Assembly (NCBI GenBank): GCA_902780935.1
Contig: CACZHP010000023.1
Span: 1 to 48,958, forward strand
Reading direction: 5' to 3'
DNA: 48,958 nt
DNA from: an uncultured Bacteroidia bacterium
GTDB taxonomy: Bacteria > Bacteroidota > Bacteroidia > Bacteroidales > UBA932
A program made the translations under genes and the position numbers. This document shows, piece by piece, positions 1 through 7,881 of this stretch (the first letter of the stretch is position 1; each line of letters begins with the position of its first letter). The notes beneath the pieces were generated by a model that saw nothing but the letters and a program-made list of their open reading frames with translations, had not been told where the DNA came from and ran no database searches.

Positions 1-400
1 TACTGGTAATGAAATGCATGGCTTCAAGGCATATTACGGTCAGCAGCATGGCGGCAATGGCTATTGGGTACATCCCGGCACCGCAGGCGAGGCCTATCGC
101 CGCGGCAACCCACAAGCCGGCCGCGGTGGTGATGCCCCTGACCACGTTTTTCTGGAATATTATCACTCCCGCCCCGATGAAACCGATTCCGGACACGACC
201 TGGGCGGCTACCCTGGAATGGTCATACTGCCCGGAGAAGGCATATTGGGAGATGATCATGAACAACGCGCTGCCGAGAGCGACTATGAAATGGGTACGGA
301 CCCCGGCTTCCTTGGCCCGGAACTCGCGCTCGAAACCGATCGCCCCGCCCAGCAGGCCGGCCACCAGGAGCCTTAATATGAAATTCCACTCTATTGTCAT
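1..400 (-). CDS. MgtC/SapB family membrane protein (C-terminus cut by window edge)
   Basis: About 133 residues are visible, starting at the ATG at position 400; the gene runs off the left edge. The N-terminal half has the MgtC/SapB pattern: a first hydrophobic helix ending in LLGGAIGFEREFRAKEAGVR, then THFIVALGSALFM, and further on GIGFIGAGVI followed by GITTAAGLWVAAAIG. These blocks (GxERE, RTxxLVxxGSAL, GIGFlGAG, TTAAxxW) are the family hallmarks, so the assignment is firm. MgtC proteins are inner-membrane proteins linked to low-Mg2+ survival and, in Salmonella, to control of ATP synthase and phosphate uptake. The gene starts 12 bases after the stop of the DASS permease gene and so appears to be the last visible cistron of the operon that begins at 7702. 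That placement fits a phosphate or Mg/ATP homeostasis role, which is inference. Confidence 0.88.
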   Translation of the reverse strand, partial: MTIEWNFILRLLVAGLLGGAIGFEREFRAKEAGVRTHFIVALGSALFMIISQYAFSGQYDHSRVAAQVVSGIGFIGAGVIIFQKNVVRGITTAAGLWVAAAIGLACGAGMYPIAIAAMLLTVICLEAMHFITS

Positions 401-412
401 ATCATTGTCTGT

Positions 413-2023
413 TTAGAATAATCCGGGAGTGATGTTCAGCCACTTGAGGACCGTCTGACCGAAGATCAGGATAAGGAACCAGGAGAATGTCATCATCGTG
501 ATTCCGAACTTGAACGCGTCCGTCTGGCTATACTGGTTTGTATTATATAGAAGCGCCGCCGGCTTGCTGTTGAATGGCAGCACATAGCAATGCTCGATCA
601 GCATGGCGACCGGGAGGGACAGGCTCATCGGCATGAAACCGAAACGTTGCTCCACTCCAAGGGCTATCGGCACGAAAACCATCGTGCGGATGGTCTTGCT
701 CTGGAACACCAGCCCCGAGTACATCATCAGGAAGGTGAGGATCACGTACAACACCCAGAACGGCGTGTCAGAGGTTATCCCCATCGAGTCAAATGCGGCG
801 TTAACCATCGTGTTGGGAAGGTCGGTGGCGTTCAGGCCGCTTCCGAGCACATACGCTCCGGCGGAGAAGAGCATCAGGTGCCAGGGGATGTCCACGTCGT
901 TCCATTTGACGACCCCTATTCCGGGAAGCAGGGCGAGGACCGCTCCGATCAAGGCGACGATGGTCTCGTCAATATTGTGGAAAGTGCCTTTTGTGACCCA
1001 AAGGAAGAGGACTACCATGAATATGCAGACCGCCCTCCACTCCTGGGCGCTCATCTTCCCCATGGCGTCCAATTCGACTTTAAGCCTTTCGATCCCGCCC
1101 TCGATCTGGGGTTTCTGCTCTTCTTTCTTCATCGGGAAGAACACGTACATCCCCACCAGGAGACCTACGACCAGGATGATCACGCTCATCGGGCCGACGG
1201 CAATGAGCCAGTCTGCGTAACCGAAGTCGCAGGATCCGAGGAAGCCGGCGATAAGGGATATCGCGAGAAGGTGTGCCCCTGACCCGGTGTAGAAGGCATT
1301 CGCCCCGATATTGACCTGGAACAAGTTCTGGATCACGAGGTTACGCCCGAAGTTATTCCTATGCCCGTCGGAAGCTCCGTAGATCGCGCAGATCACCATG
1401 AATATAGGCAGCATGATGGTCGCCTTGACTGTGGTGGCCGAGATGAAGGCCGACAGGACGAGGTTGATCAAAAGGAAACTCCACAGAACCCCCTTCGCGC
1501 TACGGCCGAACTTGATCACGAAAGCCAGGGCGAACCGCTTGGCGAACTGTGTCTTGACAAGCATGGAGGCCAGCACGAAACTGAGGATATTCAGCCACAT
1601 CACTGGGTGGCCGAGTTGTGCGAGAGCCTCTTTCTGGGTGGTCACGTTGAACAAGACGACTCCCAGGATCAGGATCAGAGAGGTCAGATAGTTTGGAAGG
1701 GCCTCCGTCATCCATAGGATCAGGCTGGCGACGAATATCGCCAGCATCGCGTAGTTGGCCCGGATGAATCCGTCCAGGCCGAGGACTCCGAGCCTTTTTT
1801 GCGCTGTCGTGGCAAGACCGGTCGTGTCCAGGTTGTCGATGAAGCCGATATGGCAGAACCAGCATATCCAGACAAAGGCGACGATAGCCAGGGGCCCGCC
1901 AAGACGGGCCATCCAAACCTCGAATTTGGATTTCCGCATCTTGGGCAGCTTCTCGATCTTGTAATTGTTCATGTCCAGCGGATCGAACGCGCTCGCCGCC
2001 TTTGTCCCGATATCTGTCGCCAT
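413..2023 (-). CDS. DASS/SLC13-type sodium:anion symporter
   Basis: A 536-residue polytopic membrane protein with roughly 11-13 hydrophobic segments after a charged N-terminus of about 35 residues. The layout (long hydrophobic halves, a cytoplasmic loop near residues 300-330 rich in K and E, and a paired motif in each half) matches the divalent anion:Na+ symporter family. The first-half motif reads SATTVKATIMLPI where classical members have SNTATAAMLLPI. The second half has VFQSKTIRT and LPFNSKPAALLYNTN. The altered SNT motifs suggest an unusual substrate or coupling ion. DASS members carry dicarboxylates, sulfate or, in yeast Pho87/90/91, phosphate. The gene starts 2 bases after the CYTH gene stop, so it is translationally coupled or nearly so, and it sits in a run with a PhoU-like protein and a phosphate-type porin. 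Phosphate or another inorganic anion is therefore my preferred, unproven substrate. Confidence 0.8.
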   Translation of the reverse strand: MATDIGTKAASAFDPLDMNNYKIEKLPKMRKSKFEVWMARLGGPLAIVAFVWICWFCHIGFIDNLDTTGLATTAQKRLGVLGLDGFIRANYAMLAIFVASLILWMTEALPNYLTSLILILGVVLFNVTTQKEALAQLGHPVMWLNILSFVLASMLVKTQFAKRFALAFVIKFGRSAKGVLWSFLLINLVLSAFISATTVKATIMLPIFMVICAIYGASDGHRNNFGRNLVIQNLFQVNIGANAFYTGSGAHLLAISLIAGFLGSCDFGYADWLIAVGPMSVIILVVGLLVGMYVFFPMKKEEQKPQIEGGIERLKVELDAMGKMSAQEWRAVCIFMVVLFLWVTKGTFHNIDETIVALIGAVLALLPGIGVVKWNDVDIPWHLMLFSAGAYVLGSGLNATDLPNTMVNAAFDSMGITSDTPFWVLYVILTFLMMYSGLVFQSKTIRTMVFVPIALGVEQRFGFMPMSLSLPVAMLIEHCYVLPFNSKPAALLYNTNQYSQTDAFKFGITMMTFSWFLILIFGQTVLKWLNITPGLF

Positions 2024-2025
2024 GG

Positions 2026-2502
2026 TTATTTCCAGTTCTTATAAGGGTTCTTCATCAACATGGAGTTGTAGTACTTGGGATCACCGGTGACCTCCTCGCC
2101 AAGCCAAGACGGCTTGTCGAAGGTGTCATTCTCGTCGGTGAGCTCAACCTCGGCGACCGTCAGGCCGTCGTTATCTCCGTAGAACTCATCGACTTCCCAA
2201 GTGTGCTTGCCGTCAGTGTTCTTGACAAGATAACGAGTCTTGTCGATGACTCCCGGCTCAGCGAGATCCAGCAGAGCCTTGACCTCGTCAACAGGGATCT
2301 CTTTCTCCCACTCGAAACGAGAGGCTCCGGAGGCGTTGCCGATACCCTTTACGGTGATGAATCCCTTGTCGCCCTTTACCCTGACACGGACGGTCCTCTC
2401 AGGGACGCTGCTGAGGTAGCCTTGGGTGATACGCGTGGCTTTGAAGGCCTCATCTTTGAAGTCTCCCTTGACCAAGAATTTCTTCTCTATTTCCTGTCCC
2501 AT
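2026..2502 (-). CDS. CYTH domain protein, probable inorganic triphosphatase (TTM family)
   Basis: A 158-residue single-domain CYTH protein, the usual size for bacterial triphosphate tunnel metalloenzymes such as the Nitrosomonas and Clostridium thermocellum ones. The ExExK signature is at residues 4-8 (EIEKK). Further tunnel residues are visible: RVRVKGDKGFITVKG, an acidic strand FEWEKEIP, DKTRYLV, a WEVDEF strand and AEVEL. All expected charged positions are present, so it should be active on tripolyphosphate or similar triphosphates in the cytoplasm with Mg2+ or Mn2+. The start is ATG 4 bases after the stop of the second CYTH-like gene. Its place in an operon with PhoU-like, porin and permease genes supports a role in inorganic (poly)phosphate turnover. 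Thiamine triphosphatase activity cannot be excluded from sequence. Confidence 0.9.
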   Translation of the reverse strand: MGQEIEKKFLVKGDFKDEAFKATRITQGYLSSVPERTVRVRVKGDKGFITVKGIGNASGASRFEWEKEIPVDEVKALLDLAEPGVIDKTRYLVKNTDGKHTWEVDEFYGDNDGLTVAEVELTDENDTFDKPSWLGEEVTGDPKYYNSMLMKNPYKNWK

Positions 2503-2506
2503 ATTC

Positions 2507-3145
2507 TTACTCGTTAGCTAAAGGTTTATCTATCATGCCGATGACCCTCTTGATTGCCTGGAGGTAATTGATGTTCTCCACTCCCTCGAGACCGCAGTCG
2601 GCGATGGTCTTTTTGATGTCCTCGATCTCCGTGGACTCGGAGTTGATCGTGACGACTTTAGCGCCGTTGATCAGCACGTTGCCCACCTCGCAGATGGTGT
2701 CGTTGACCATGTAGCCGAAGCGCTGCTTGTGGACCCTGACGGCGGCGAGGTCGGGGCATGCCTTGACCATCGCGATGAACTCCTCATAAGTGTAGGTGTC
2801 CTTTGTCAAGGCCGGCATCTCAACCATGAAAGCGGGGAAAACCTCTTTCTCAAGAACCTCTTTCGAGATAGGGAACTCCCCTTTCATCAGCGGGTTCCAC
2901 TGCTCGAGACCATCGACGGTCTGGACATAGGTCTTGATGTCCATCTTGCCATTGCGGATCTTGGTGTTGTTGATGTCGTTCTTGGCGGAGATGATGTATA
3001 TCTCGTCGCTTGTACGCTCCCAGACCTTCTCCGGCACGGGGACGGAAAGACGCGCCATTCTCTTGTGGGCCTCACAGAAGTTCTGCCCAAAGCTACGGAA
3101 TTCAAAGCGAGGCTTGCTCTGCTCGCCGATTTTAAGTTCTGCCAT
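2507..3145 (-). CDS. Divergent CYTH-like protein, possibly catalytically altered
   Basis: A 212-residue soluble protein that I read as a remote CYTH homologue. The order of elements fits: an N-terminal FEFRSFG strand where ExExK is expected, then SDEIYIIS and NTKIRNGKMDIKTYV (equivalent to the alRiR...ltlK strands), an acidic GEFPIS, and in the second half VRVHKQRFGYMV, ICEVGNVLING, VVTINSEST and a C-terminal helix with NYLQAIKRVIG. The paired acidic residues of ExExK and of the late EIE strand are replaced (RFEFR, SES), so the tunnel chemistry may be lost or changed. It precedes the canonical CYTH gene by 4 bases, which suggests co-expression and perhaps pairing. It could be a polyphosphate or nucleotide-binding regulator, or an enzyme with different metal ligands. 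The fold call is by eye only. Confidence 0.6.
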   Translation of the reverse strand: MAELKIGEQSKPRFEFRSFGQNFCEAHKRMARLSVPVPEKVWERTSDEIYIISAKNDINNTKIRNGKMDIKTYVQTVDGLEQWNPLMKGEFPISKEVLEKEVFPAFMVEMPALTKDTYTYEEFIAMVKACPDLAAVRVHKQRFGYMVNDTICEVGNVLINGAKVVTINSESTEIEDIKKTIADCGLEGVENINYLQAIKRVIGMIDKPLANE

Positions 3146-3169: not shown

Positions 3170-3991
3170 CTATTGCTTCACATCCGGATCATCGGTGCCG
3201 CTTGTGCTGTTAGCGGCTCCGGGAGTGAACTTCTCGGTCTGCATCCACTTGCCGCTGCCGTCCGGGATACGGCTCCAAGAACCCTTGTTGTTGGAGAGGG
3301 ACGCACCCCACTCACCGGTATCCATCTTCTCGCCCCTCTGGAAGAAGTCGATCTTGTTGCCCTTTGTGTCGAAAAGCTCGATAAGCACGCTCTTCTTGGC
3401 GGAGAAACCGCTCTTGAATCCCCTGGGGGTTGTTCCCTTGCCACCGACAATGGCGAAGTAGCCCTTGGCAGGCACGACCTCACCGTCAATCCCGGTCCAT
3501 GTCAGCTCCTCATCCTTGTTGATCGTGACCCCCGTGAGCTTGATCGGGAAGTCTCCGGCATTGTACAGCTCGAAGAATTTCTCCTCGTCAGCACCAGCGC
3601 CATAAACCTCGTTGAGCCTCAACTTGGTCCAGTCGGTGGCCGGATCGCCGACCTTGTAGGAGAACTTGTCTGAAGTGGTCGCGAAACCGGCCTCATTGTT
3701 GACAGTTATCGTGAAATTGACCTCGGTGCCGTCAGCCATCGCCGGGATCGTGGCGGTGAACTGGGTTCCGGAACCGGTCATCTGGACGTTATTCCCGTTG
3801 TAGTTGAGCGTGGCCGATGTCACAGCCTGCAGTCCTGAAACCGTCGCGGTCACATTGACAGGAGCGATTGAGGTCGGTGCCTCTGGAGTGAACGCCACCT
3901 TGTCGATGCTTGACGGGCCTTCGAACATCTTGTCTTCCACGCATCCGAGGAGCGCGATGAGAGCCGCTGAGAATAAAAGTATCTTTTTCAT
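3170..3991 (-). CDS. Lipoprotein with lamin-tail (LTD) domain
   Basis: I start at the ATG at 3991; a TTG two codons upstream is possible but unlikely. The 273-residue product begins MKKILLFSAALIALLGC, a type II signal with Cys17 as lipidation site. Residues about 35-115 look like an Ig-like beta domain (pairs of short beta-strands, VNVTATVSG, FTATIPAMADGTEVNFTITV). Residues about 120-250 match the lamin-tail domain: LRLNEVYG, EKFFELYNAGDFPIKLTG, a tryptophan strand, VPAKGYFAIVGG and a final SWSRIPDGSGKW strand. Bacterial LTD proteins are secreted or surface attached and often accompany phosphatases, nucleases or phosphodiesterases. It lies between the porin and CYTH genes with 24-27 base gaps, so it belongs to the same transcript. 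It may be a surface scavenging partner of the porin; no catalytic motif is seen. Confidence 0.85.
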   Translation of the reverse strand: MKKILLFSAALIALLGCVEDKMFEGPSSIDKVAFTPEAPTSIAPVNVTATVSGLQAVTSATLNYNGNNVQMTGSGTQFTATIPAMADGTEVNFTITVNNEAGFATTSDKFSYKVGDPATDWTKLRLNEVYGAGADEEKFFELYNAGDFPIKLTGVTINKDEELTWTGIDGEVVPAKGYFAIVGGKGTTPRGFKSGFSAKKSVLIELFDTKGNKIDFFQRGEKMDTGEWGASLSNNKGSWSRIPDGSGKWMQTEKFTPGAANSTSGTDDPDVKQ

Positions 3992-4018
3992 AATCAATTA
4001 TTTCTTAATGTGGTTTTA

Positions 4019-5386
4019 CTAGAAGTCGATCTCGAAGCGAAGAGCCAGCATGTGGTAGTCAACTCCCGCCTTTCCGGTAGGAGTAGCGACCTTGGTGTAG
4101 TCTTTGGTAGGCTGTCCTGCCGAATCTTTGCCGACATTGAGCTTGCCCTTACCGTTAGCGTAACGGTCGTTGTTGTTGAACTGGTAGTTCAGCTGCATTT
4201 TGACATTCTCGTTCACCCAGTAGTTGAGACCAAGGGTGTAAGCCTCAGCCGCTCCACCATAGACATTGCCGAAATTAAGGTTGCAAGTCTCGTAACGGGC
4301 GCAGAGTTCGATGTCGCCCCAGTCGTGGGCGCGCTCCACCTTGGTGTACTTGCCACCCATTGAGTCATAGCGCTGCTTTCCGCCGAAGAGCAGATAGCCC
4401 GCCTGGGCGTACCAACCACCGAAGTTCTTGGTCTCGGGATCAGCGGCTTCCGGCTTGAAATGGACGTTGTCGCCAATATAAGCGGCCTCATAGCGCAGTC
4501 CGCCCCAGTGACCGGCCAGCTCGACAGTCCAGAGGTTGTTGTGGTCGAAGCCGGGAAGGTTATTGGTGTCGATGTACTTCTTGCGGTTGATGCTCGTGGA
4601 GTTACGCGCGCTTGCCCTGTATGTGCCCCACTCGCCGGTGGCAAGGTCGGTGGTCGTTGTCCTGTAGGAATATGCCGCACCGATGTGGAGGCTGGCGTTG
4701 TCAAGCTTGTACAGGGGACGAAAGACCAGCTTGGTGGTAAGGGAATAACCGGAGCTGCGGCCGAAATCCTTGTTGTTGTCTGCCACATTGGTCCATTCCT
4801 CCTGTCCGGCGATCACCTGAGAGAACGCTCCGGCGGAGAACCAGATCCAATCCTTGGCGTACTTGGCGTTGAATCCAAGATGACGGGACGGTGACAGGGC
4901 CGAGCAGACCATAGGACGCTCCATGAACTGGAGGTAACGGGAGGTCGTGTTCCTCTGGATAGAGAAGTTCTCCTTGAAGTTTCCTACCTGGAGATCCAGG
5001 TTGGGGACACCTGTATAACGGACGATGGCATCCTTCAGCTCGGCAAGGCCGTTGGCGAGATCCATATCGAACTCTCCGTACCAATTCTCATCGATCTGGC
5101 CTTTGACCGCGAAACGGGCCCTGCGGATCTGGACACCGTTGCCGATCTTGTCGGCATAGTCGGGAGCGCCGAAAAACACCGCCCCGTCAGCTTGCGCGCG
5201 GATATCAAACCAAAGTTTGTAACCACTTGCCGGAGACTCCAGGACAAGGATTCCGTCCTGAGCCTCAACGTCAAGCCTGTCGGATTTGACCTGTACACCG
5301 TACTGGTTGTACTTGACTCTTTGTTGCGCGGTGGCCGCCGGAACTACCAGCAGCAGCGTCGCGACTATTAAAATTATCTTACGCAT
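4019..5386 (-). CDS. OprO/OprP-type phosphate-selective porin family protein
   Basis: A 455-residue outer-membrane beta-barrel with a signal peptide (MRKIILIVATLLLVVPAATA, cleavage before QQ). Near residues 75-110 it has the porin O/P pattern: GVQIRRARFAVKGQI, ENWYGEFDMDLANG and LKDAIVRYTGVPNLDLQVGN. The rest is alternating aromatic strand pairs (FGGWYAQAGYLLFGGKQR, AYTLGLNYWVNENVKMQLNY), and it ends in a strand finishing with Phe, the usual beta-barrel assembly signal. In Pseudomonas this family forms trimeric phosphate or pyrophosphate channels; in Bacteroidetes annotations the family is broader. Here the neighbours (PhoU-like, PiT-like, CYTH) support phosphate or polyphosphate uptake. It follows the permease-regulator gene by 27 bases. 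Confidence 0.88.
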   Translation of the reverse strand: MRKIILIVATLLLVVPAATAQQRVKYNQYGVQVKSDRLDVEAQDGILVLESPASGYKLWFDIRAQADGAVFFGAPDYADKIGNGVQIRRARFAVKGQIDENWYGEFDMDLANGLAELKDAIVRYTGVPNLDLQVGNFKENFSIQRNTTSRYLQFMERPMVCSALSPSRHLGFNAKYAKDWIWFSAGAFSQVIAGQEEWTNVADNNKDFGRSSGYSLTTKLVFRPLYKLDNASLHIGAAYSYRTTTTDLATGEWGTYRASARNSTSINRKKYIDTNNLPGFDHNNLWTVELAGHWGGLRYEAAYIGDNVHFKPEAADPETKNFGGWYAQAGYLLFGGKQRYDSMGGKYTKVERAHDWGDIELCARYETCNLNFGNVYGGAAEAYTLGLNYWVNENVKMQLNYQFNNNDRYANGKGKLNVGKDSAGQPTKDYTKVATPTGKAGVDYHMLALRFEIDF

Positions 5387-5413: not shown

Positions 5414-7030
5414 TTAAATCGCTCTTATGAATTTGATAAGGTTGTCACTTCTTTGGAGACCCAGCTTGCAGCGCAGGCGGTAACGGTTGATCTCCACGCT
5501 TTTGGGGGCTATATTCATCAGCGAGGCTATGTACTTGGAGGAGAATCCCTGGCGGAGAAGATTCGCGAGTTTCCTCTCGTTTTCGGTGAGGTTGGGATAT
5601 GCCTCCGAGAGGCGCAGGTTGAAATCCCTGTGAAGGACCTCGCTCCGGGCATAGAAGTCATTCATCTCGCTCGTGAAATACATCCTCTCCCTCATGGAGG
5701 ACAGCAAGGTGTCGGTCCGGGCGTCTTTCTCCGGCCCGTCTGGCAAGGCCCGAACCTCTTTGAGATCCTCGTAGAAGCTTTCCATGAACCTTTTCTGGTC
5801 ACCGATGCCCACCGCGAAATCCACGAGTTCCTTCCTCTTTATGTCAAGTTTGTTAAGAAGGTCTTTCTCAGTCATTTCCGCTTTTACCTCAAGGGCAGAC
5901 AACGACCGCCTGGTGCTGTTAAGCTGGCTCTCCCTTGCCCGGAGGATCCGCTTCTGAAGGTCCCTGCCGCCTTGCCAGCGGAAGAACAACGTCACGCCAA
6001 AACCAAGAGCGGTGAGAGTGAGGGCAATCAACGAACCGAGGGCAGTCCCGTCCACGACCTTTGCCAGGCAATACGAGAGCATGAAGGCCAGGACCGGAGC
6101 CAACGCGGCTGCGGCAAAGGTCCCCACTATGACTTTAGTGTCCGTGAGAGCCCGCCCGCGGATTACGCTGATCCCTACAAGGGCGGAGACGAACAAAAGC
6201 CCGACAGGCAGAGGGGTAGCCGCCATTCCGATCTTTCCCGGCAAGGGACTTGAGAACAAGGCAAGGACGACCGCCATTGAAAGGATCACTGAAGAAATCG
6301 ACTGGGAATTGATGTCCAGCTCATAATCAGAGATGTTCCACGTGTCTATGGAGACCTCCTTCCGCATCAGGAGGTATAGGAAGGAGGCACAAGCGCAGGA
6401 AGTCAGGATCCTGGCCCAAAGTGGGGCGGGGGCTGTCTGCGGCAGATATGAGAACAGCAGTGAATAATTGACAGAGAAAGCCGCCAGAAGGAGGAATGAA
6501 GCTATCATTGAAATCCCCAGGAGGCGCGCGTCAATGACTGCGAGATGGATCTTCTTGTTCTTCAAGACCAAAGCGTAGATCCGGTATATTCCCGCCGCTA
6601 CCAAAGCGCACAGCAAGGGAGCGACCACCCAAGAAAGTAGGAAGGAGCCCGCCGCAATGAGGTTCAGCTGGCCCTCCTTTGCCAGAGAGATGCCGGCAAG
6701 GGAGGCTATGAAAGCGAACGGCACGGCAATATAGCGGCCAAAACGTCCCGCCACTATTGCCGATATCGCGGTGGCCAAGCCGACAGGAATGATGTCGGCG
6801 GCAGAAGTTGGCCTGAATACACTTGTAGCCGCAGCCGAGAGAGGATCGCCGGTCACCAGAAATGGGACGGCGAGACCGGCCAACAGGACAAAAGGCCAAA
6901 GATACCTTGTTGACAGCCTTTCCCCCGCCCCGGAAGCCAGCACGGCCCCGTTGACGACAGGCAGATCCCTCAGCACAGCCAGGGAACCAACCAGAAGAGT
7001 GGAGAATATGATGTAAACAAGGATATCCAT
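5414..7030 (-). CDS. Degenerate PiT phosphate-permease domain fused to LuxR-type HTH (predicted membrane-bound phosphate-responsive regulator)
   Basis: A 538-residue protein. Residues 1-345 are polytopic (about ten hydrophobic segments) and resemble a PiT/PHO4 phosphate permease by eye. The GxNDxxN motif position reads LRDLPVVNGAVLASGAG (residues 20-36): Asp22 and Asn27 are kept, the first Asn is Arg. The PTSTT position is YIAVPFAF, and SWVVAPLLCALVAAGIY (133-149) matches the family's inter-repeat helix. Residues 345-465 are a charged coiled-coil followed by the Bacteroidetes linker FNLRLSEAYPNLTENERKL. Residues 481-538 are a complete LuxR/GerE HTH (GFSSKYIASLMNIAPKSVEINRYRLRCKLG, written here as segments GFSSKYIASLMN and KSVEINRYRLR). 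The DUF47 partner of PiT permeases is 6 bases upstream, where a permease gene is normally found. I infer a sensor that binds phosphate or the DUF47 protein and controls transcription from the membrane. An alternative is an unrelated polytopic sensor domain. Confidence 0.72.
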   Translation of the reverse strand: MDILVYIIFSTLLVGSLAVLRDLPVVNGAVLASGAGERLSTRYLWPFVLLAGLAVPFLVTGDPLSAAATSVFRPTSAADIIPVGLATAISAIVAGRFGRYIAVPFAFIASLAGISLAKEGQLNLIAAGSFLLSWVVAPLLCALVAAGIYRIYALVLKNKKIHLAVIDARLLGISMIASFLLLAAFSVNYSLLFSYLPQTAPAPLWARILTSCACASFLYLLMRKEVSIDTWNISDYELDINSQSISSVILSMAVVLALFSSPLPGKIGMAATPLPVGLLFVSALVGISVIRGRALTDTKVIVGTFAAAALAPVLAFMLSYCLAKVVDGTALGSLIALTLTALGFGVTLFFRWQGGRDLQKRILRARESQLNSTRRSLSALEVKAEMTEKDLLNKLDIKRKELVDFAVGIGDQKRFMESFYEDLKEVRALPDGPEKDARTDTLLSSMRERMYFTSEMNDFYARSEVLHRDFNLRLSEAYPNLTENERKLANLLRQGFSSKYIASLMNIAPKSVEINRYRLRCKLGLQRSDNLIKFIRAI

Positions 7031-7036
7031 GACTTG

Positions 7037-7702
7037 TCAGAGGGCTCTTTTGATCGCCATAACCGAGAGCTGCTCGGCGACCTTGACGGCCGCCTTGGCA
7101 AGGTCCTCGATGTGAAGGGCGAAATACCGCAAATGGAACTTCTCGCTAAGCTTGAGATCGTCGACCATGTCATGGAAAACCGTGCGCTTTATAGACTGCG
7201 AGAGCTTCACGGCCTCCTTCTCATAGAAGTAAACCCTCTCTGTGGTCTCAGCCACCTCCTCGGGCTGGGTAAAGTAGGCCTTCGACCCCGGGATGGTGCT
7301 CTCGACAGCCAGGGACGCGAGCTCACTGAGTTTGAGAAACTCCTTCCTCAGCTCCGCGGGAATCTTCGGATTCTCAATCTCGAACTGGACAAGATCCACA
7401 CTTATTATAGATATAATATGGTCGAATCTCTCCAGGAGCCTCATGATGTCTCCCCTGGAACGGATGAGATACCCCCGGGAATACAGGGCACTCTCGATCT
7501 CCCTGATCCTGGCACCGGCCTCAGTCTCCAGCGAGGCCATGGAAGAAAGATTGTCCACAAAGGCTGACTCGTCATTGTAGAGGTAATTCTTGACACCTTC
7601 CCTGAAGACGAGGAGCGAGTGGTCAACAATGCCGAGAAGTTTGTCCATGCTTCCCACAAGGCCGTCGGCTTTCTTTTTGGAGAATATATTGAAAAGTCCC
7701 AT
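7037..7702 (-). CDS. DUF47 family PhoU-like protein
   Basis: A 221-residue all-helical soluble protein of the DUF47/UPF0111 (TIGR00153) PhoU-like family. Visible traits are the N-terminal MGLFNIFSKKK, the early helix with the DKLLGIVDHSLLVF block, the repeated long heptad helices, a helix with SRGDIMRLLERFDHI at about residues 95-115, and the C-terminal SLSEKF-like helix LKLSEKFHLRYFALHIEDLAKAA. Members are usually encoded beside a PiT phosphate permease and are thought to gate or regulate it, with metal ions bound by acidic helix faces. Here the next gene, 6 bases downstream, is the permease-like/LuxR fusion, so the DUF47 protein may control the fusion rather than a transporter. It is the first gene of the operon, downstream of the inverted repeat at 7716-7752. 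Confidence 0.9.
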   Translation of the reverse strand: MGLFNIFSKKKADGLVGSMDKLLGIVDHSLLVFREGVKNYLYNDESAFVDNLSSMASLETEAGARIREIESALYSRGYLIRSRGDIMRLLERFDHIISIISVDLVQFEIENPKIPAELRKEFLKLSELASLAVESTIPGSKAYFTQPEEVAETTERVYFYEKEAVKLSQSIKRTVFHDMVDDLKLSEKFHLRYFALHIEDLAKAAVKVAEQLSVMAIKRAL

Positions 7703-7752: not shown

Positions 7753-7765
7753 CCTTGTAGAGAAA

Positions 7766-7797
7766 CAAAAAGGCTCGTACATGCCGTACAAGCCTTT
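7766..7797 (-). terminator. Rho-independent terminator of the 8622-7882 lipoprotein gene
   Basis: On the minus strand a 12-bp stem (arms 7786-7797 and 7769-7780, one G-T type mismatch) with a 5-base loop is followed by a run of T. It lies about 85 bases after the lipoprotein stop and isolates that gene from the phosphate operon downstream. Confidence 0.8.
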
Positions 7798-7881
7798 CCA
7801 ATAGGGATGGTATAGAGTAATTGTAGAGTTTTTAAAAATAACTTTACATTCGCTTGTTAAGTTTATTAATAGTGTGAAGCG

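Follow-up and report, generated by a model that had tools for sequence, protein, structure and literature searches.

The 538-residue product of a single gene in an uncultured Bacteroidia bacterium (Bacteroidales UBA932) is, as its sequence reads, a PiT-derived membrane domain joined to one extra helix, a coiled coil, and a LuxR helix-turn-helix (HTH). We think it probable that this protein is a one-component membrane transcription factor that acts on its own operon under the governance of the DUF47 protein encoded next to it (DUF47'), with phosphate as the most likely signal; phosphate as the ligand is the least certain step. The gene lies in contig CACZHP010000023.1 (GCA_902780935.1), whose 48,958 nt, the whole stretch of DNA analyzed, we call the window. 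Transporter-derived membrane regulators are already known, and the PiT-LuxR version appears to be new. An earlier reading by a model, made from the letters of this DNA (the sequence-only reading), knew of no described PiT-HTH fusion, and no description of a PiT-LuxR or PiT-HTH fusion was found in the open-access literature that we searched.

Domain Architecture of the Fusion Protein

The fusion ORF is on the minus strand, with its ATG at 7030 and its stop at 5414. Profiles, motif alignment, and hydropathy delimit a PiT-derived membrane core of ten hydropathy segments that has lost its transport motifs (residues 1−325; 6056..7030, minus strand). An added eleventh TM helix (residues 330−348; 5987..6043, minus strand) is indicated by hydropathy, by charge pattern, and by a module match that begins at residue ∼331. 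It is followed by a coiled-coil linker (residues 353−475; 5606..5974, minus strand), which is named from the sequence and is helical in the AlphaFold model at mostly low confidence, and by the LuxR/GerE HTH (residues 478−538; 5417..5599, minus strand), which carries a Pfam GerE match. Averaged over the window family, the ten core segments and the one at 329−345 give 11 segments. The earlier count of about ten TM segments fits the core and missed the eleventh, which is part of the TM-coil-HTH module. The profile of fused relatives with intact motifs has 12 hydropathy segments, two of them separated by just three residues around the NN motif, and its final segment comes after a 39-residue loop. 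Alternating positive charges suggest that both ends of the core are outside, so that the extra helix would put the coil and the HTH in the cytoplasm.

The LuxR HTH described in the sequence-only reading is confirmed: in Pfam, the window protein scores 29 bits for GerE at residues 480−530 against a cut-off of 23.5, and all ten orthologues scanned exceed the cut-off. For PHO4 (PF01384), the window protein itself reaches 16.6 bits at residues 85−171, below the cut-off of 33.7; at E ≤ 1, PHO4 is listed for 7 of 10 orthologues and not for the other three, and two of the ten pass the cut-off (L082, 36.4 bits; L085, 42.7 bits). A profile of 14 members covering residues ∼1−345 (A2) matches the solved phosphate transporter 6l85 at E 7e-8, with both repeats covered. 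Its alignment with five canonical PiTs is weak (E 8e-4). The PiT homology was settled, after weak comparisons with five canonical PiTs or two CysP-like proteins, by the larger set of fused relatives outside the window's family (A6), whose profile aligns with that of the window family at E 2e-23 over columns 1−322 and matches 6l85 at E 7e-35. The PiT resemblance noticed in the sequence-only reading is upheld by these results, and the unrelated fold that it had named as a refutation is one to which no sequence profile points. The AlphaFold2 model, built from seven sequences, is too poor to bear on the fold of the membrane part; it has a mean pLDDT of 41.9, with values below 50 for residues 1−410, which include the membrane part, and about 70−80 for the HTH.

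The membrane part appears from codon comparisons to be under purifying selection. Its dN/dS is 0.10−0.19 where computable, and that of the coil and HTH is 0.00−0.08. Several pairs are saturated for dS; the membrane part gives 0.11−0.16 in the three pairs with dS < 0.6. Decay of the membrane part as a pseudogene was considered and rejected, since the frames are open and dN/dS is low.

Distribution of the Fusion

When the whole window protein was searched against 199 genomes of the window's family (E ≤ 1e-6), 61 genomes gave matches; in 15 of these, the window's included, the match starts at or before residue 104, and in the rest it covers the C-terminal part only. A contig scan added six loci from uncultured Bacteroidales or Bacteroidia, with 60−88% identity in the best segment, all of which group with the window on the DUF47 tree. 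The record titles of two of the six mention the rumen or omasum. The window's clade (f1) comprises 21 full-length fused proteins that align from end to end, with an HTH in every one.

Across the order, the A2 profile (295 genomes, E ≤ 1e-5) matched 28 genomes. The fusion is found in 18 of them, namely, the window's genome, G236, 14 others with the HTH in frame, G087, and G272; an unfused PiT' gene is found in seven, the match in G203 is cut by a contig end, and two have only permeases that we label CysP-like. The fused gene of G272 (L122) runs into a contig end within the coil and stops short of the HTH; L146, counted among the non-fused loci, is likewise cut by a contig end. The fused gene of G087 (L123) is broken by a TAA into two ORFs. 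All 13 fused relatives scanned outside the window's family match PHO4 (best E 6e-65) and 12 of the 13 match GerE, at E ≤ 0.001. Genome G128 has two DUF47'-PiT' operons (L126 and L141), one fused and with the operator described below, the other unfused and without it, and the two are a natural control.

The class search (E ≤ 1e-15) matched 159 of 395 genomes, nearly all through the HTH module alone among the rows listed, and contained one more full-length fusion, with the same operon around it, in a genome of another order (G669). In the phylum search (395 genomes, E ≤ 1e-100), 12 genomes matched through the PiT part only, and the ten of these that were read, all ten, are without the HTH module. 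Both searches used a motif-bearing profile, which matched the window's own protein through the HTH module only in the class search and did not bring it to the 1e-100 threshold in the phylum search, so that motif-less fusions outside the order could be missed. In other classes of the phylum, PiT genes (L217−L223; 492−528 aa) have a C-terminal, soluble-looking extension of ∼150 aa that is without the HTH module.

The genome search that the sequence-only reading had proposed thus returned the same fusion at 21 clade loci, in frame in 14 other Bacteroidales genomes, and once in another order. With 21 full-length clade loci and 15 more in-frame fused genes, a chimera or a chance fusion is ruled out.

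Operon and DUF47 Partner

The gene for the PitR-like DUF47/PhoU_div protein lies 6 bp upstream of the fusion gene (7037..7702, minus strand) and was assigned from Pfam and the DUF47 tree. For PF01865, the window protein scores 22.2 bits, just below the cut-off of 24.4; the L082 orthologue scores 48.6 bits over the full domain (residues 3−212). DUF47' stands immediately upstream in 20 of 20 clade loci other than the window and, elsewhere, in all 17 fused loci, counting L122, L123, and L177. The DUF47 partner gene named in the sequence-only reading is therefore present, adjoining and upstream, in every clade and fused locus read. That reading would have been given up had orthologues lost their link to phosphate genes, and the orthologues keep DUF47.

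The genes that follow are on the same strand. A Porin_O_P outer-membrane porin (4019..5386, minus strand; Pfam), whose nearest solved relatives are OprP and OprO, comes next in 19 of 20 clade loci other than the window, L072 ending there, and in 14 of 17 fused loci elsewhere, L122, L128, and L135 ending at or near a contig edge. Past the porin, the gene order in the clade is a lamin-tail-domain protein (3170..3997, minus strand; Pfam), p2507 (2507..3145, minus strand), a CYTH-domain protein (2026..2502, minus strand; Pfam), a DASS sodium-coupled anion symporter (413..2023, minus strand; Pfam) with dicarboxylate transporters as its nearest solved relatives, and MgtC, which was checked in Pfam in L067 only. 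The start of the MgtC-like gene, cut by the window end (1..400, minus strand), was assigned from its counterpart at that position in L067, and the window stretch was read by eye. The DASS gene is present in 16 of 20 clade loci other than the window. In the eight unfused operons, the DUF47'-PiT' pair is followed by a p2507-like or CYTH gene in five; L137 also has a porin and p2507, and two have neither.

By Pfam and alignment, p2507 is a highly conserved 212-aa protein of no known family. It is present in 16 of 20 clade loci other than the window and has 77−99% identity to 9 of 11 aligned relatives and 27% and 45% identity to the other two. A guess by eye that it is a CYTH or VTC relative found no support in Pfam, NCBIfam, or the PDB. 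A sulfate-assimilation operon, suggested by reading the 206-aa gene behind DASS as CysC, was discarded when Pfam identified that gene as MgtC.

Elsewhere in the window's genome, for which the assembly is 97% complete, a second PiT gene lies within a 755-aa frame. No Rfam RNA, including known riboswitches, was found in 3900−9100 at E ≤ 1. A small LuxR-type HTH ORF of ∼71 aa (8655−8870, minus strand) was seen by eye with a TPR-LuxR gene on one side and a lipoprotein-like gene on the other; in L067, the ORF in this position resembles the TPR-LuxR protein.

Motif Loss and the Probable Order of Events

The ND and PVSTT-type motifs of both repeats have roles in PiT transport. We counted them in a joint alignment of 55 sequences, on which the counts depend. 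The IAVPFAF stretch of the window family aligns on the VSTSQAI / PVSTS block, where the sequence-only reading had placed it. All four motif blocks are altered in the window clade: PVSTS and PVSST are kept in 0 of 21 members, and the Asn after the ND/NN pair is lost in both repeats in 21 of 21. All 21 members retain an acid (D/E) at the D22 position, and all retain the first Asn of repeat 2. The loss of catalytic motifs proposed earlier is accordingly correct for PVSTS, PVSST, and the Asn residues and does not extend to the last two positions. The fused rows of other families (n = 15, L122 included) have the repeat-1 Asp in 15/15, the Pro and Ser of the PVSTS-like block in 14/15 and 15/15, respectively, NN..N in repeat 2 in 15/15, and PSS[TS] in 15/15, and, like canonical PiTs, they have ND in repeat 1 (14/15). 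Where the canonical rows have ND in repeat 2 and His after each STS block, these fused rows have NN and Gln, and they share both features with three proteins that we label CysP-like.

On a DUF47 tree of 48 rows, with its root drawn at the midpoint, the window clade forms a single group (100/98), and this group joins 12 fused-intact rows, L123 being one of them (100/99). Motif loss takes one change on this tree and fusion state takes three. Because motif loss is a single change and the clade adjoins fused-intact rows, the simplest order is that the fusion probably came before the loss of the motifs. The shortest unfused proteins (L138, L141, and L142; 343−347 aa) stop just past the core. Unfused L139 and L140 have a further hydrophobic helix at the C-terminus but no HTH, perhaps a remnant or a precursor of the fusion.

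A Candidate Operator Upstream of the Operon

Direct repeats of CTCTACA lie upstream of DUF47', the start of the operon, in the window. The likely operator, picked out by the upstream repeats and by conservation, is a tandem CTCTACA-N4-CTCTATA with an 11-bp period, CTCTACAATTACTCTATA (7811..7828, minus strand); a further half-site, CTCTACA, is found among the upstream repeats at 7756..7762 (minus strand). With C[ACT]CTACA counted on the sense strand within 300 bp upstream, the operator is present in 36 of 37 fused loci (34/35 without the defective L122 and L123) and in none of nine others (eight surely unfused plus L146). By group, it occurs in 20/21 clade loci, 16/16 other fused loci (14/14 without L122 and L123), and 0/9 others; the exception is L083, a fused locus that has no operator site within 300 bp. 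The same pattern on the antisense strand occurs in 13/21, 3/16, and 1/9 loci, respectively, and shuffled sequences give means of 1.42, 0.93, and 0.20 regions. The strict CTCTACA is found in 18/21, 9/16, and 0/9 loci. As a control, the same count was made for the other ORFs of 150 aa or more at these loci, and sites precede 13/239, 4/145, and 3/90 of them. The fused locus of G669 has two operator sites, and the unfused locus of G638 has none. The joint occurrence of fusion and operator amounts to two to three phylogenetically independent contrasts, all of which agree, a number too small for significance.

A TAnnTTTG box, which we take to be the Bacteroides −7 consensus, stands near the start in 15 of 17 fused loci. 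In 6-bp windows, the CTACA core lies 63−68 bp upstream of the box in 9/15 loci, 159−164 bp in 8/15, and 117−122 bp in 6/15; L122 and L123 are in the 63−68 and 159−164 sets, and the loci are related by descent. Over 2000 trials, random placement gave a maximum of six loci in the best window, compared with the nine observed. The 117−122 set alone is not beyond chance because random placement also reaches six.

The window's genome has one perfect CTCTAYA-N4-CTCTAYA pair, and a looser repeat pattern shows no enrichment there (21 sites, compared with 61 for the reversed control). In 149 family genomes, CTCTACAANNNCTCTA has 11 sites against 23 for the control, and three of the 11 (in G000, G432, and G395) are at this operon by their coordinates. 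From these counts, we take the strict pair to mark this one operon, in some of the genomes, and not a genome-wide regulon.

Between the two operator blocks, at 7771−7795 (minus strand), is a terminator-like hairpin with a T run. In several orthologues a hairpin was seen by eye at the same place with other stem letters.

Proposed Mechanism and Alternatives

In the mechanism that we propose, a PiT phosphate permease was fused, as the sequences show, to a TM helix-coil-LuxR HTH module common to other Bacteroidota LuxR regulators. The charge pattern suggests that the protein sits in the inner membrane with its HTH in the cytoplasm. Co-occurrence and spacing suggest that the HTH recognizes the CTCTACA repeats ahead of the operon in which it is encoded and controls transcription there. 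Activation is the most likely mode, since the promoter box lies downstream of the repeats. The PitR-like DUF47 protein would report anion status, most likely that of phosphate, to the PiT domain, and the DUF47'-PiT pair would take the place of the two-component system on which PitR acts in Staphylococcus, with no kinase. The PiT domain of the window clade, its transport motifs lost, would be a receptor or platform only; the motif-bearing domain of other families may both transport and signal. The sequence-only reading had called the window protein a membrane-tethered transcription factor and a transceptor. A membrane-tethered regulator is likely; the window protein looks like a receptor only, and the term transceptor suits its motif-bearing relatives better. 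A more far-reaching version, which we put forward tentatively and hold to be possible, is that these relatives are flux-reading transceptors that import phosphate and set transcription of the operon through the LuxR domain and the PitR-like partner, without a kinase, the window clade being the end stage, a pure receptor.

It could be that the membrane domain of the window clade is a mere anchor that senses nothing and that signaling falls to DUF47' or another protein alone. The alteration of all four motif blocks speaks for this, as does the better conservation of DUF47' (81−96% identity) than of the membrane domain (50−83%) across the same six loci. However, the membrane domain is under purifying selection by the dN/dS values above, and it keeps the D/E at the D22 position and the repeat-2 Asn in 21/21 members, and we regard the anchor as unlikely, although it is the strongest of the alternatives. 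Somewhat more doubtful is that the PiT-derived domain senses another anion in place of phosphate, either sulfate or a dicarboxylate transported by the operon's DASS symporter. Some PiT-type proteins, such as CysP, carry sulfate, and the repeat-2 NN and the Gln after both STS blocks that the fused relatives share with the proteins that we label CysP-like are the reason why the anion could be sulfate; the window-clade profile is also slightly closer, weakly, to the CysP-like pair than to the five canonical PiTs (1e-4 versus 8e-4). The dicarboxylate draws on the conservation of the DASS gene in the operon, with dicarboxylate transporters as its nearest relatives. Against both anions, the neighbors DUF47/PitR, OprP/OprO-like porin, CYTH, and MgtC speak for phosphate or polyphosphate; matches of the motif-bearing fused relatives to PHO4 reach E 6e-65, and their repeat-1 ND is kept in 14/15; and for the fused relatives listed for both profiles, the canonical PiT profile outscores the CysP-like one.

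We consider it improbable that a PhoB-type response regulator uses the CTCTACA repeats as its PHO box and that the fused HTH acts elsewhere. The 7-bp units and 11-bp period do resemble PHO boxes, which in Streptomyces are described as direct repeat units of 11 nt in the accessible text of one report (PMC7866108), but the repeats are missing upstream of nine DUF47'-PiT' operons not seen fused (L146 being contig-cut), the second operon of G128 among them. Moreover, the window's genome has the one perfect pair and none within 300 bp upstream of the 755-aa PiT gene, and it has no PstC over the cut-off (two weak matches) and PhoU only within a 652-aa ORF.

If the transceptor version is true, the unfused, fused intact, and fused motif-less forms would preserve, in living lineages, the stages between a transporter and a transcription factor. 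It has long been asked how bacteria link the import of phosphate to the expression of their genes. PhoU and PitR proteins work together with a transporter on a sensor kinase, and the intermediate step is unclear. Here, a transporter-derived domain and a DNA-binding domain are in one molecule with a PitR-like protein adjoining, so that the signal from DUF47 to PiT could be read directly at a defined promoter, and the natural series would allow one to ask which PiT residues serve signaling and which serve transport.

Comparison with Known Systems

The nearest parallel for the partner gene is in Staphylococcus, where, in the available portions of two reports, a PhoU_div/DUF47 gene is likewise followed by a PiT gene (PMC13170248, PMC7326077). 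PitR, a single PF01865 domain, and its cognate Pit are described as controlling Pi signaling via PhoPR in S. aureus (PMC13170248). PitR there acts on the PhoPR two-component system, whereas here PiT itself bears the DNA-binding domain. A precedent for an uptake transporter recast as a sensor, with transport lost, is Ks-Amt5, an ammonium transporter-histidine kinase that, according to the accessible part of its report, binds ammonium without moving it (PMC5764959). The output of Ks-Amt5 is a histidine kinase; the PiT fusion carries its HTH directly, so no phosphorelay is needed.

The regulators DadR, HcdR, and CadR of Eggerthella lenta are described, in the portion of the report available, as LuxR proteins with 10−12 TM helices that respond to substrates (PMC9734109). 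They are alike in their many TM helices, C-terminal LuxR HTH, one-component form, and regulation of neighboring genes, and the 11 hydropathy segments of the window family are within their range. They differ in belonging to another phylum and in that the same portion of the report assigns their TM domain to no transporter family and mentions no DUF47 partner. Unlike them, the PiT fusion shows a named transporter ancestry and intermediate forms.

The module itself is widespread. From residue ∼331 onward, the fusion protein resembles many LuxR regulators of the order, whose N-terminal part is unmatched. The NCBIfam BT3442 family has a homologous TM-coil-HTH module and matches L082 at residues 342−544. 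In other Bacteroidota LuxR regulators the N-terminal part is likewise unmatched to the PiT domain, and many of their frames, of about 900−1000 aa, match through the module only.
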